Assembly (NCBI RefSeq): GCF_004217335.1
Contig: NZ_SHMP01000003.1
Span: 682,001 to 746,000 of the forward strand
Direction: 5' to 3'
Source of the DNA: Natrinema hispanicum
GTDB lineage: Archaea > Halobacteriota > Halobacteria > Halobacteriales > Natrialbaceae
Length of the DNA stretch: 64,000 nucleotides
Below the pieces are notes generated by a model, which did no database searches, was not told where the DNA came from, and saw only the letters and a list, made by a program, of their open reading frames with translations. A program made the translations under genes and the position numbers. This document shows positions 33,233 through 38,294 of this stretch, one piece after another (position 1 is the first letter of the stretch; each line of letters opens with the position of its first letter).

Positions 33233-34141
33233 TCACTCGTCGCTGTCGCCACCGTCGCGCCAGGAATCGGGGACGTCGATGACGTATCGGCCGTCCTCCT
33301 GGAGAGAGATGATGTACTCTTCACGGTTATAGAGTTCCATCAAATTGAGTTCGTACTGGCCCGGTCGGACGATCTTGATGCTCTCGAATTGTTTGTTGAG
33401 CTCTTCCCGCAGGTCGTCGATCGACGGACGATCCCCGCTCGGTTCGCTGACGACACGACCGTGTTCTGGCGGCTGATCGTCATCGGCTGCTGTGGCATCG
33501 GTCGGCTCGTCTGCATCGACGCCGTGTCGAGGGTCGGAGACGGCGGCTCCATCGGTGTGAGTCGGCAAGTCGCCTGCAGAAATGACCTCGCTTCGGGCGT
33601 CAGCCTGTGCCGAATTCTCGTCGTCTGCAAGCGTCGTGGTCGGCTCGTCCGGTTGCTGGTGCGACCGCTCTCTATCGCCGGATTCGTCGATCGTCTCGGT
33701 CTGTGTGTCGGTTCGGTTCTCGGGTCGCCGCGCCGTCTCGGGCCACTCAGCGAACGCCTCGCCGGTTGCGCCGTCGGCCTCGGCGGTGTCAGCCTCACCG
33801 CTCGAGGGCCACGACCGCTCCGACTCGACAGCAGCGCTCGAGCCGTCGGGCGTGGACTGTACAGCAGGGTCGGGTGATTGTCGGTTCCGCCCATCCGTCG
33901 AGTCGTCGTCTCTAGTGATCCAATCGCGGACGGTCTCCGTGGCACGGCTCGTGACGCTGCCCGACTCAGTCGATTCTGCGTCGGCTGCTTCCGTGTCGCC
34001 GGCCCCATCGGAGGCGTCTGCTGTAGCCGCAGTTGTGGGTGCAAACTGAAACTTGTTCCCGCCACAGTCGGGACAGCCCGACAGCATCTCCTTGGAACCG
34101 TCAGCGAACGTTCGACCGCAGTTCGTACACTGATGAGGCAT
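33233..34141 (-). CDS. arvC: ArvC/OapC zinc-ribbon protein
   Basis: A 302-residue protein with an N-terminal zinc ribbon (HQCTNCGRTF ... LSGCPDCGGNKF), a long Ser/Thr/Asp/Glu-rich linker (~40-230), and a conserved C-terminal domain of ~70 residues (DDLREELNKQFESIKIV, GQYELNLMELYNREEYIISL). This is the third gene of the haloarchaeal cluster arvABC (also called origin-associated proteins). In Haloferax the cluster is linked to membrane vesicle formation. The start overlaps the arvB stop by one base. Its length varies with the linker. Confidence 0.85.
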   Translation of the reverse strand: MPHQCTNCGRTFADGSKEMLSGCPDCGGNKFQFAPTTAATADASDGAGDTEAADAESTESGSVTSRATETVRDWITRDDDSTDGRNRQSPDPAVQSTPDGSSAAVESERSWPSSGEADTAEADGATGEAFAEWPETARRPENRTDTQTETIDESGDRERSHQQPDEPTTTLADDENSAQADARSEVISAGDLPTHTDGAAVSDPRHGVDADEPTDATAADDDQPPEHGRVVSEPSGDRPSIDDLREELNKQFESIKIVRPGQYELNLMELYNREEYIISLQEDGRYVIDVPDSWRDGGDSDE

Positions 34142-34542
34142 TAATTACGGGAGACGAGCGCGCTGATGAGCGTTTCGTCCTTGTGGAGCGTCTCGATCTG
34201 GTTGGCTGGTCCGATCACGGTAAGTTTCGTCTCCACTTTGTCGCTACCCATAATGCGGCCAAGCAGCGACGAGTCACGGGCCTCGGACTTGGGATAGGTC
34301 TCGATCTCGATCCCGTTGAACTCGTCGGGGCTGATTTCAGCCATCGTCACCTCGATGAGGCGACTCTCCTCGTCCGGCGTCAGCCCTTCCTCTAAGATGA
34401 CGATGTTCCCGTCGTGGACGCCGTCCAAGATCATCCTGATCTTTTCCATTGTGGCCATCCCGTCCATGCGCTCGCCGCTTATCAGGTCGATCTGTACGCC
34501 GTCGGACGGCTCCGAATCGTCTGCGTTGGTTGCCTTCGGCAT
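34141..34542 (-). CDS. arvB: ArvB/OapB DUF2073 protein
   Basis: A 133-residue DUF2073 protein: VQIDLISGERMDGMATMEKI, IRMILDGVHDGNIVILEEGL, TMAEISPDEFNGIEIETYP and GRIMGSDKVETKLTVIGPA are typical. It lies between arvA (6 bp upstream) and arvC (one-base overlap), so the three are co-translated. It is predicted to work with the ArvA GTPase. Its biochemical role is unknown. Confidence 0.9.
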   Translation of the reverse strand: MPKATNADDSEPSDGVQIDLISGERMDGMATMEKIRMILDGVHDGNIVILEEGLTPDEESRLIEVTMAEISPDEFNGIEIETYPKSEARDSSLLGRIMGSDKVETKLTVIGPANQIETLHKDETLISALVSRN

Positions 34543-34548
34543 TGTTTC

Positions 34549-35187
34549 TCACCCGAAGTACTCCGCGATCTTGTCGTACACTTCGTCCATGTTGTCGCCT
34601 TCCTTCGCAGAGAGTGGCACGGTCGTGTGCTGTGGGAAGGCGTCCTCGATCCGTTTGACGCTCGAGTCCTCGAGGTCGGTCTTGTTCGCGAAGATGAGAA
34701 CCGGAAGATCGCGAGACTCGATGATGCCGATCAACATCGTGTTGACCTGCGTGATCGGGTCTTCGGCGCTATCAAGTACGTAGATGACGCCGTCGACGTC
34801 TTCGCGTAGCCAGTGCATCGCCTCGGCGACGCCTTCGGTCGCTTCACGGGAGCGACGAATCGCGTCCTCTTCGTCGAGCTCGTCCGTGAACTCCTCGTAG
34901 TCGACCTTGGTCGTCACACCGGGCGTGTCGACGATGTCGATCGTCACCGTCTTTCCGTTGCGTTCGATGTCGACGTTTTCTTTGCGGCGTGCGCGACGCG
35001 TCTCGTGGGGGATGTGACTCTCTGCACCGATGGCATCACCCGTCCAGTCGCGTGCAATGCGGTTTGCGAGCGTGGTCTTGCCGGCGTTCGGCGGACCATA
35101 GATACCGATTCGTTTGGGCTCCTGTTCCGAAAACAGGCGATCCGTCACCCGAGAGATACTATCTTTGAGTTCTGTGAACAGTCCCAT
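34549..35187 (-). CDS. arvA: ArvA/OapA Era-like small GTPase
   Basis: A 212-residue GTPase: G1 GPPNAGKTTLAN at ~32, G3 DTPGVTTK, G4 FANKTDLE and G5 PLSAKEGDN. This Era-like group sits beside haloarchaeal origins, and its Haloferax member drives extracellular vesicle formation. The start MGLFTELKDSISRV at 35187 is chosen over an upstream Cys/Arg-rich extension. A CTTAAG box lies ~55 bp upstream. Its promoter region is shared with the oriC intergenic DNA. Confidence 0.92.
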   Translation of the reverse strand: MGLFTELKDSISRVTDRLFSEQEPKRIGIYGPPNAGKTTLANRIARDWTGDAIGAESHIPHETRRARRKENVDIERNGKTVTIDIVDTPGVTTKVDYEEFTDELDEEDAIRRSREATEGVAEAMHWLREDVDGVIYVLDSAEDPITQVNTMLIGIIESRDLPVLIFANKTDLEDSSVKRIEDAFPQHTTVPLSAKEGDNMDEVYDKIAEYFG

Positions 35188-35548: not shown

Positions 35549-35575
35549 CCCCCCACCCCTTCGTTTCAACTGGAG
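35549..35575 (-). other. Origin recognition box ORB1 with G-string
   Basis: The minus-strand sequence is CTCCAGTTGAAACGAAGGGG followed by TGGGGGG. It matches ORB2 at all but four of the aligned positions, in the opposite orientation, and is of the type bound by archaeal Orc1/Cdc6. Confidence 0.85.
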
Positions 35576-35690
35576 AGCGTCGAGTGTGTGGGGTTGGTGA
35601 GTGGCCTGAGAGCTGCCAGTTATCCCTCTTTTCGGCTTGAGATAGGTTCTACAGCACGAAACCGGACGAATTGGTGGTGTTAGAACGGAT

Positions 35691-35846
35691 CTAGTAACGA
35701 GTTCTACTAGTTACTAGTATTAGCAGTTCTGAGAAGATAATCTAGGAAGGACTAGTAATAAGAAACACACCTCTAGTAAAATATACTGTTTTGCTAGTTC
35801 TACGGTTACTGTTTCTAGCCAACCAACCTAAAACCTTCCCTTCTAG
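35691..35846. other. CTAG-rich AT-rich core of the origin
   Basis: Nine CTAG sites start at 35691, 35707, 35714, 35742, 35752, 35773, 35794, 35815 and 35843. The four from 35752 to 35815 are exactly 21 bp apart. CTAGTAAC at 35691-35698 and GTTACTAG at 35710-35717 form an inverted pair. The stretch is A/T-rich and lies between the inverted ORBs, the place of the duplex-unwinding element. Confidence 0.8.
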
Positions 35847-35880: not shown

Positions 35881-35909
35881 TTCCACCTGAAACGAAGGGG
35901 TGGGGGGGG
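35881..35909 (+). other. Origin recognition box ORB2 with G-string
   Basis: TTCCACCTGAAACGAAGGGG followed by TGGGGGGGG. It is inverted relative to ORB1 across the AT-rich core and faces orc1. The G-run is the dyad-adjacent G-string typical of haloarchaeal ORBs. Confidence 0.85.
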
Positions 35910-36515: not shown

Positions 36516-38294
36516 ATGTCAGACGACTCAGAAACCGCAGATTCGGACGAGGTTGAAATCGACGGAACGAGGGGGTTCTCGACGAACTTCGAGAACGCTG
36601 ATCTCGGCGACGAGGAGTCGAATCAGGGGTTGTTCGACGATCTCCTCAGCGGTGAACCCATCTTCGAGAACAAGGAAGTACTCCGTCCATCCTACACGCC
36701 ACACGAACTTCCCCATCGGAGCGACCAAATCAACAAGATGGCGACCATTCTGGTGGCCGCCCTTCGCGGCGAAACGCCGTCGAACATTCTCATCTACGGC
36801 AAAACCGGCACCGGAAAGACCGCAAGCGCGAAGTTCGTCAGCAAGGAACTCGAGAGTACGTCCCAGAAGTACAGCGTCCCGTGTGACGTCGAGTACATCA
36901 ACTGTGAGGTCACTGACACTCAGTATCGCGTGCTCGCACAGCTGGCAAACAAGTTCATCGAGAAGAACGAAAACCGGATCGACGAGCAACTCGCGACCCT
37001 CGAGTCGCTGCTAGACGCCCTCGACGAGTACGATGCGACCGTCGACGCTCGCACTCCCCACGGGGCAAACGCGGACGACCGGTCCAACGACCAAACGGCG
37101 TCGGATCCGTTCGAGGTCGCACTCGAGGATGCGACGGAGTCAGAGACCAACGTTTCGTCTGGAGACGAAATCGAGTCCGAGTCAGGCGGTTCTCCACCTG
37201 AAGCAGAGGGGTATTCGGGATCGTCCGAATCGAAAACACCCGCTCCCTCCACTGAATCCGATCCCACGTCCGCCGACGGCACCGGAAATTCGGCGGCTGC
37301 CGATTCGACCGCGCTTCCACCGGATCACCCTCTCGAGTCGACGCCGTTCGAGAGTCGCGAGGGGGTCGAAGCCCGTATCGAGGAGCTCGAGGCCGACAGG
37401 GAGTCCTTCGAGGAAGTCCCGATGACCGGGTGGCCGACCGACCGCGTCTACAGCGTCTTCTTCGACGCGGTCGACTACGACGAGCGGGTCGTCGTCATCA
37501 TGTTAGACGAGATCGACAAACTCGTCGAGAAAAGCGGCGACGATACGCTCTATAACCTCTCGCGGATGAACTCCGAACTCGAGAACTCGCGGGTCTCGAT
37601 TATCGGCATCAGTAACGACCTGAAGTTTACCGATTTCCTCGACCCGCGCGTCAAATCCTCGCTCGGCGAAGAGGAGATCGTCTTTCCCCCCTACGACGCG
37701 AATCAGTTACGCGACATCCTCGAGCATCGCTCGAACGTCGCGTTCAAGGATGGTGCCCTCTCCGAGGACGTGATCCCGCTGTGTGCAGCGTTTGCTGCAC
37801 AAGAACATGGTGACGCACGTCGCGCATTGGATTTGCTTCGCACCGCGGGTGAGCTGGCCGAGCGCTCCCAAGCCGAAACGATCGTCGAGGAACACGTCCG
37901 GCAGGCTCAGGACAAGATCGAACTCGATCGCGTCGTCGAAGTCGTCCGGACGCTGCCGACTCAGAGCAAACTCGTGCTCTTTGCGATCATCCTGCTCGAG
38001 AAAAACGGCGTCCACAGCATCAACACGGGCGAGGTGTTCAACATCTACAAGCGTCTCTGTGAGGAGATCGATGCCGACGTTCTAACCCAGCGTCGGGTGA
38101 CGGATCTCATCAGTGAACTCGATATGCTCGGCATCGTCAATGCTGTCGTCGTCTCGAAGGGCCGGTACGGTCGGACCAAAGAGATCAGTCTCTCCGTTCC
38201 ACTCGAAGAGACGGAGGCCGTGTTATTGAGCGATTCCCGGCTGAGCGATATTGACGATGTTCAGCCATTTATTCAGGCCAGGTTCGAGAACTGA
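36516..38294 (+). CDS. orc1: Orc1/Cdc6 origin-binding initiator
   Basis: A 592-residue AAA+ initiator. Walker A GKTGTGKT is at 95-102, Walker B VVVIMLDEID at 325-334, and sensor 1 is IIGISNDLKF. After the arginine-bearing helical lid (GDARRALDLLRTAGELAE), a C-terminal winged helix (~470-592) binds the ORB. Between Walker A and B lies an acidic low-complexity insertion (~153-300), rich in Ser/Asp/Glu, which makes it longer than the ~400-residue archaeal norm. It is adjacent to oriC and is the cognate initiator by position. Its TGA stop borders palindromic element copy 5. Confidence 0.95.
   Translation: MSDDSETADSDEVEIDGTRGFSTNFENADLGDEESNQGLFDDLLSGEPIFENKEVLRPSYTPHELPHRSDQINKMATILVAALRGETPSNILIYGKTGTGKTASAKFVSKELESTSQKYSVPCDVEYINCEVTDTQYRVLAQLANKFIEKNENRIDEQLATLESLLDALDEYDATVDARTPHGANADDRSNDQTASDPFEVALEDATESETNVSSGDEIESESGGSPPEAEGYSGSSESKTPAPSTESDPTSADGTGNSAAADSTALPPDHPLESTPFESREGVEARIEELEADRESFEEVPMTGWPTDRVYSVFFDAVDYDERVVVIMLDEIDKLVEKSGDDTLYNLSRMNSELENSRVSIIGISNDLKFTDFLDPRVKSSLGEEEIVFPPYDANQLRDILEHRSNVAFKDGALSEDVIPLCAAFAAQEHGDARRALDLLRTAGELAERSQAETIVEEHVRQAQDKIELDRVVEVVRTLPTQSKLVLFAIILLEKNGVHSINTGEVFNIYKRLCEEIDADVLTQRRVTDLISELDMLGIVNAVVVSKGRYGRTKEISLSVPLEETEAVLLSDSRLSDIDDVQPFIQARFEN

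Follow-up and report, generated by a model that had tools for sequence, protein, structure and literature searches.

Clustered CTAG sites in the core of a Natrinema oriC1 and their possible connection to CTAG methylation

The oriC1 locus and its CTAG sites

The window analyzed here (the whole 64-kb stretch of Natrinema DNA) contains a locus that is identified from its sequence features as oriC1, with two inverted ORBs carrying G-strings, an AT-rich core between them, and an orc1/cdc6 gene alongside. The leftwards-transcribed GTPase gene on the other side, which we take to be OapA, is adjoined by OapB and OapC genes, and its product is 100% identical to the corresponding proteins of Natrinema limicola and N. 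hispanicum. The features are listed below by window coordinate, with CTAG sites also numbered as offsets from 35752.

33233–34141, minus strand: OapC gene (PF09845, 1.7e-28)
34141–34542, minus strand: OapB gene (PF09846, 8.6e-43)
34549–35187, minus strand: GTPase gene adjoining oriC1 (MMR_HSR1, 3.7e-14)
35549–35574, minus strand: left ORB with G-string (25/26 matches to the ORB word)
35688–35802, no strand: least stable stretch in the 64 kb (nearest-neighbour energy), likely to serve as an unwinding element
35691–35846, no strand: CTAG array (sites at 35691, 35707, 35714, 35742, 35752, 35773, 35794, 35815 and 35843)
35691–35694, plus strand: site -61 (at -61 or -62 in 16/43 anchored cores, see below)
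35742–35797, plus strand: array backbone, with sites -10 (35742), 0 (35752), +21 (35773) and +42 (35794)
35800–35832, plus strand: conserved CTACGG, ACTGTTT and TAAA elements beside the array (alignment column frequencies)
35815–35818, plus strand: site +63, completing a 21-21-21 run (8/43 anchored cores)
35843–35846, plus strand: site +91, off helical phase (+89 to +91 in 22/43 anchored cores)
35882–35907, plus strand: right (orc1-side) ORB with G-string (25/26 matches to the ORB word)
36516–38294, plus strand: orc1/cdc6 gene (Cdc6_C 5.9e-32, Cdc6_lid 7.6e-31)

The minimal oriC1 of Haloarcula hispanica is described as an AT-rich region between two inverted ORBs (PMC3936714). The first-pass annotation had placed AT-rich DNA between inverted ORBs here too, and ORBs are indeed found on both sides with the calculated weakest DNA between them; the five least stable 100-bp segments in the 64 kb (nearest-neighbour energy) all start at 35688–35703, within or at the edge of the array. 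The conserved CTACGG, ACTGTTT and TAAA elements stand between the array and the right ORB.

The core contains nine CTAG sites within 156 bp, and a re-count of the window reproduces all nine coordinates given in the first-pass annotation as well as the exact 21-bp distances it noted between 35752, 35773, 35794 and 35815. The tetranucleotide is otherwise scarce. There are 34 copies in the window against 92.5 ± 9.4 in dinucleotide shuffles, and since all 100 shuffles held at least 34, CTAG is avoided in the window, in line with the avoidance claimed for haloarchaea; the earlier estimate of two dozen copies elsewhere in the 64 kb compares well with the 25 present outside the ORB-to-ORB core (0.39 per kb). 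A sample of twenty 20-kb stretches of the same genome (400 kb) contains 222 copies, and its densest 156-bp stretch starting at a CTAG has three sites against nine in the array. The array has a GC content of 0.365 over its 156 bp, and CTAG counts in the genome sample climb as GC drops, but the 23 tiles of matching GC hold on average 0.17 CTAG with a maximum of one, the three lowest GC bins pooled (78 tiles) reach two, and the top count in any GC bin is three. Under a first-order Markov model with the composition of the core itself, of which CTAG is the most frequent 4-mer, the mean is 2.98 sites, and nine or more arise in 12 of 5000 simulations.

Similar clusters are present elsewhere in the genome. 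Searching for CTAG triples gave 28 matches, which we group into 13 separate clusters; the reversed control pattern, GATC triples, has 2616 matches. For eight of the 13 clusters, one of the genome's 20 Cdc6_C matches is no more than 2.4 kb away, with the cluster on its 5' side, and about 0.15 such clusters would be expected (binomial 3e-13); two of these eight are identical and may be one (1.7e-11 if counted once). The identical clusters accompany equally scoring Orc genes at C5:5576 and C5:191865, reflecting either a duplication or an assembly repeat. The five clusters that are not near a Cdc6_C match (C1:330913, C1:830488, C4:333706, C5:62939 and C7:167671) are possibly further origins or regulatory sites. 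A search for plasmid copies of the core gave no match. Viral copies of the array were also considered, and at least 120 viral stretches matched, but we take these to be chance matches in AT-rich DNA.

Conservation of the spacing in Natrialbaceae

The window was compared with the surroundings of the GTPase gene at 80 named loci; an ORB pair is present in 76 of the 81, and 48 cores, including that of the window, were aligned as Natrialbaceae, to which we take their genera to belong. The sites are retained to very different degrees. CTAG is kept at 35742 in 45 of the 48 cores, at 35752 in 42 and at 35794 in 38, and at 35773 in 44 if a shift of up to two alignment columns is allowed (17 in the exact column). 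The remaining sites are weakly kept by exact column (35843 in 22 cores, 35691 in 16, 35815 in eight, 35714 in three and 35707 in two).

Sites -10, 0 and +20 to +22 recur together in 43 of the 48 cores. We used the -10/0 pair as an anchor, which five cores lack (L037, L045, L047, L051 and L053), and because anchoring fixes only these two positions, the others provide a free test of constraint. Among the 43 anchored cores, CTAG is found at -41 or -42 in 36 and at +40 to +42 in 38, with all five positions occupied in 33; +89 to +91, -61/-62 and +63 are optional (22, 16 and eight cores respectively). The window lacks the -41 site and has one at -38 instead. Where a 4-mer other than CTAG is the most frequent at an offset, its median share among the anchored cores is 0.21, and in the family alignment the CTAGs are kept whereas the DNA separating them has diverged. 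The anchor also stands at a nearly constant distance of 127–131 bp from the right, orc1-side ORB in 42 of the 43 cores, compared with 96–209 bp from the left ORB. The exceptional core, L054, aligns poorly, has 183 bp to the right ORB and is probably anchored by chance; without it the recurrence is 42 of 47. The sites at -61, -41, 0 and +21 share the extended form CTAGTAA in one direction, and +42 reads TGCTAGT.cTaCGG.

Most Natrialbaceae cores thus retain both CTAG and fixed spacing, although the 21-bp spacing noted in the first-pass annotation is not general. The 21-21-21 run is exact in the window, but it is one version of a grid with steps of 10, 20–22 and 31 bp; as a general rule we reject strict 21-bp periodicity, because the steps are 10, 20–22, 31 and 49 bp, and +63 and -61/-62 occur in only eight and 16 of 43 cores. 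A pattern of three spaced CTAGs matches in 36 of 61 genomes of the family and in none of the other 25, and most of the matches listed are this oriC1 sequence, with some at other loci. The cores of three Natronococcus genomes (L051, L053 and L054) align poorly with the family, yet contain six, four and seven CTAGs in other arrangements. Halomarina rubra (L078) has five CTAGs spaced by 10, 11, 11 and 11 bp, approximately one helical turn, just outside the left ORB and 461–504 bp upstream of the GTPase start.

It was also proposed that the sites spaced by 21 bp face the same side of the helix, and this holds for part of the array. With a 10.5-bp period, positions -41, -10, +21 and +42 share one phase (R 0.97, p 0.005), but p rises to 0.11 when +91 is added, is 0.03 (R 0.68) with -61, +63 and +91 all added, and is 0.33 (R 0.24) for all 20 distinct positions seen in at least two genomes. 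We therefore conclude that these four positions are phased and the set as a whole is not; in the window, 35707, 35714 and 35843 are off phase. Phasing of every site is accordingly unsupported (p 0.33), and class-wide phasing, beyond the family, was set aside as weak (p 0.025 against uniform distances, with a peak near a period of 10.0 and each distance counted once per genus).

A predicted CTAG methylase and core CTAG number across haloarchaea

The genome contains three PF01555 matches, of which one spans the full profile. It corresponds to a 350-aa protein encoded at C2:436263–437312, on a different contig from the array (the 4.26-Mb genome is in 11 contigs), and is identified as a Type II methylase by PADLOC. 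None of the seven proteins encoded next to it has a restriction domain, NCBIfam models match only far below cut-off, and its phage relatives share at most 35% identity among the 15 matches listed. A gene for a GAF/BAT/HTH_10 regulator lies directly 3' of the methylase gene (L239:11376–13490, contig C2). Relatives are common: 343 of 391 genomes of the class have matches at E 1e-60 or better, and in a smaller draw 117 of 136 have strong matches. An orphan methylase group, cHG U, which includes HVO_0794, is reported in 174 of 217 genomes and in about 37.5% of Halorubrum (PMC6471742). Among congeners, genome-wide modification reaches 97.0% of CTAG sites for N. versiforme BOL5-4 and 98.7% for N. 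pallidum BOL6-1 (PMC6696651), the modification being reported as m4C in N. pallidum NMX15-1 (PMC12160562), and the array is present in other strains of both species (L009 and L010). We infer from this distribution and the congener methylomes that the 350-aa protein is probably specific for CTAG.

Core CTAG number was compared with methylase presence in 102 cores, from genomes with a GTPase gene, orc1 and an ORB pair, the source genome itself being excluded. The class sample comprised 136 genomes, 34 of them in family f1, and from it we took 100 of the 102 genomes outside f1 (all but G021 and G051), plus 20 of the 33 relatives within f1. Among the 101 methylase-positive genomes taken, the GTPase and orc1 genes are side by side in 81 and an ORB pair is present in 79; 11 of the 19 negatives of this draw were usable, three of them after joining contig ends. 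Further negatives came from the second draw of 391 genomes, from which 17 of 29 were taken (eight outside genus g19 and nine of 21 within it) and 12 were usable; 28 of these new negatives were called by elimination, being absent among the matches listed. Two genomes with weak methylase-like matches (G006 and G014) were counted as negative, and one with a single stop in the match (G010) and three with split matches (G063, G095 and G122) as positive. At ten loci of genus g19 (L129, L131, L132, L135, L137, L138, L146, L147, L148 and L150) the GTPase gene has no orc1 or ORB pair beside it, and oriC1 seems to have been moved or lost in part of this genus.

The two groups of cores differ strongly. 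The 79 methylase-positive cores contain 265 CTAG in 17,653 bp (15.0 per kb) and the 23 negative cores contain four in 4,542 bp (0.9 per kb). At least two sites are present in 59 of the 79 positives and in none of the 23 negatives, and zero in eight and 19 respectively. The methylase-negative genomes listed all belong to one family, and a tree of GTPase and Orc1 for the 102 cores requires five parsimony changes of methylase state. Tree correction weakens the association: of eleven lambda values tried in a regression on this tree, the best, 0.9, yields t 2.83, whereas lambda 1.0 yields t 1.80, which is not significant. An earlier tree-corrected test with 89 genomes, eight of them negative, was not significant (t 1.43 at the best lambda of 0.75), and the sample was enlarged after this null result by adding negatives, so that the ratio of positives to negatives is not the natural one. 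Within family f4 the 28 positives differ from the 23 negatives (Mann-Whitney p 3e-5, without tree correction). The methylase link drawn in the first-pass annotation is thus borne out insofar as a predicted enzyme is encoded in the genome, core CTAG number goes with methylase presence, and CTAG is modified genome-wide in two Natrinema species. As to the conditions that annotation set for rejecting its idea, it withstood the two that were examined (CTAG no rarer elsewhere, and orthologous cores without the sites or their spacing), and its interpretation is supported in part.

The methylase-negative cores remain AT-rich (GC 0.46), with TATA at 17.8 and ATAT at 13.9 per kb against CTAG at 0.9, which argues that core CTAG is not a by-product of AT content. 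In positive cores outside f4, TATA and ATAT occur at 3.1 and 3.3 per kb, compared with 17.8 and 13.9 in the negatives. Many methylase-positive cores outside Natrialbaceae are CTAG-rich in other arrangements without the grid, and some have no CTAG. We read this as two layers, in which the density of methylatable sites is the older trait and their register a Natrialbaceae refinement.

Possible functions and related systems

A cluster of an otherwise rare word in the weakest DNA of the window, with its spacing largely kept and with such clusters absent at oriC1 of relatives that have no predicted methylase, argues that the sites may mark freshly copied origins. By analogy with bacterial origins, we tentatively favor a reading in which the methylation state of the array would signal recent copying of the origin, hemimethylation delaying its re-firing, although we hold this to be somewhat short of probable. 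The orphan PF01555-type enzyme would keep the array sites fully m4C-methylated, and passage of the fork would leave both daughter cores hemimethylated. A putative reader protein would then bind the array cooperatively in its hemimethylated state, chiefly on one helix face and next to the ORB occupied by Orc1, and would prevent the core from opening until methylation of the second strand. Of these steps, the direction of the effect has the least support, and full methylation might instead permit melting. A search for SeqA in 13 genomes of the genus (this one and 12 congeners) found none, and among 21 genomes searched there was one marginal match, in a methylase-less genome, with the E. coli control matching; a search for SRA-domain readers gave zero matches, but as the control genomes likewise had none, this result carries no weight. 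Haloarchaea are polyploid, and strict once-per-cycle control is therefore less obviously needed. A further counterweight is Haloferax volcanii, where elevated CTAG density is reported for oriC2 alone and where deletion of the methylase gene proved possible (PMC5867850).

An alternative that we consider unlikely, but take seriously, is that the CTAGTAA sites are direct repeats, spaced by roughly two turns of the helix, to which an origin protein with sequence specificity binds (Orc1, perhaps, or a protein of the nucleoid), with methylation incidental. It would account well for the fixed grid, the single direction of CTAGTAA at -61, -41, 0 and +21 and the constant distance to the orc1-side ORB, and there is a parallel in Sulfolobus, where a non-initiator protein binds an essential origin motif (PMC12141716). 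It accounts less well for the many methylase-positive cores outside Natrialbaceae that are CTAG-rich without any grid, for the six, four and seven CTAGs in the poorly aligning Natronococcus cores, and for the association between core CTAG and methylase, since a simple binding site would not require one. A role of CTAG methylation in tuning transcription of orc1 or the GTPase operon, and not in origin melting, seems improbable: the array does lie between divergent genes, and CTAGs of the Haloferax lucentense-like SVX82 are reported to be enriched within 75 bp upstream of transcription starts (PMC11001535), but it is approximately 670–825 bp from the orc1 start and 500–660 bp from the GTPase start, and it is its distance to an ORB that is kept. 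Slightly less credible still is that the array is a mere unwinding element, CTAG being just the form that its readily opening TA steps have taken by chance; it does coincide with the weakest DNA of the window, but AT-rich tiles elsewhere hold few CTAGs, and the methylase-negative cores, which are AT-rich through TATA and ATAT, had already weakened this account. Relaxed avoidance of CTAG in non-coding DNA combined with common descent, and no function, is very improbable, since the spacers diverged and the CTAGs did not and clusters also lie near other Orc genes of the genome, even though CTAG becomes more frequent at lower GC in the genome sample and related genomes share their history.

Returning to the methylation mark, a more elaborate version, which we regard as doubtful, is a clock for re-initiation in archaea, made of m4C CTAG sites locked in register within the oriC1 melting region. 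Their hemimethylated state would be read by a new DNA-binding protein that evolved independently of Dam–SeqA, and methylase-less lineages would run the same origin on TATA steps. The wider question is how archaea prevent an origin from re-firing; that CTAG methylation plays a part was suggested in 2016 on the basis of motif density. The grid makes this proposal concrete, in that it specifies sites, spacing, helix side and an adjoining ORB, and offers a bait for the putative reader protein; the methylase-less relatives, with an oriC1 lacking the CTAG cluster, are a natural control.

Dam, GATC and SeqA operate at enterobacterial oriC. The array resembles that system in having the targets of an orphan methylase packed into an origin (PMC5867850), but differs in its modification, which would be m4C within CTAG and not m6A within GATC, and in the lack of any SeqA match among the 13 genomes of the genus. 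The predicted methylase resembles HVO_0794 and group cHG U in being of PF01555 type, near-universal in the class and patchy in one large genus (PMC5867850, PMC6471742), a likeness of family and distribution. The ucm element and UBP of Sulfolobus origins also represent a conserved extra motif inside an archaeal origin, although the motif and phylum are different and the abstract of that report makes no mention of methylation (PMC12141716).

The closest precedent is provided by Blow et al. (2016; PMC4752239), and both the CTAG cluster itself and its link to a methylase were already published there. They described CTAG clusters at haloarchaeal orc1/cdc6 genes, often with several in one genome, reported that these correlate with an orphan methylase, and proposed a role in replication; the main text prints CATG and the Figure 6 legend CTAG. 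The word CTAG is absent from the main text of Wu et al. (2012) on haloarchaeal origins, and we found no title or abstract in the open-access literature that describes a spaced CTAG array. The features shared with Blow et al. are the presence of clusters upstream of several orc1/cdc6 genes and their association with the orphan methylase, the passages concerned dealing with motif density over 50 kb. To this the present analysis adds the fixed grid with its CTAGTAA sites, its constant distance from the orc1-side ORB and its location in the weakest DNA, together with the TATA/ATAT cores of methylase-less genomes and a tree-corrected test.
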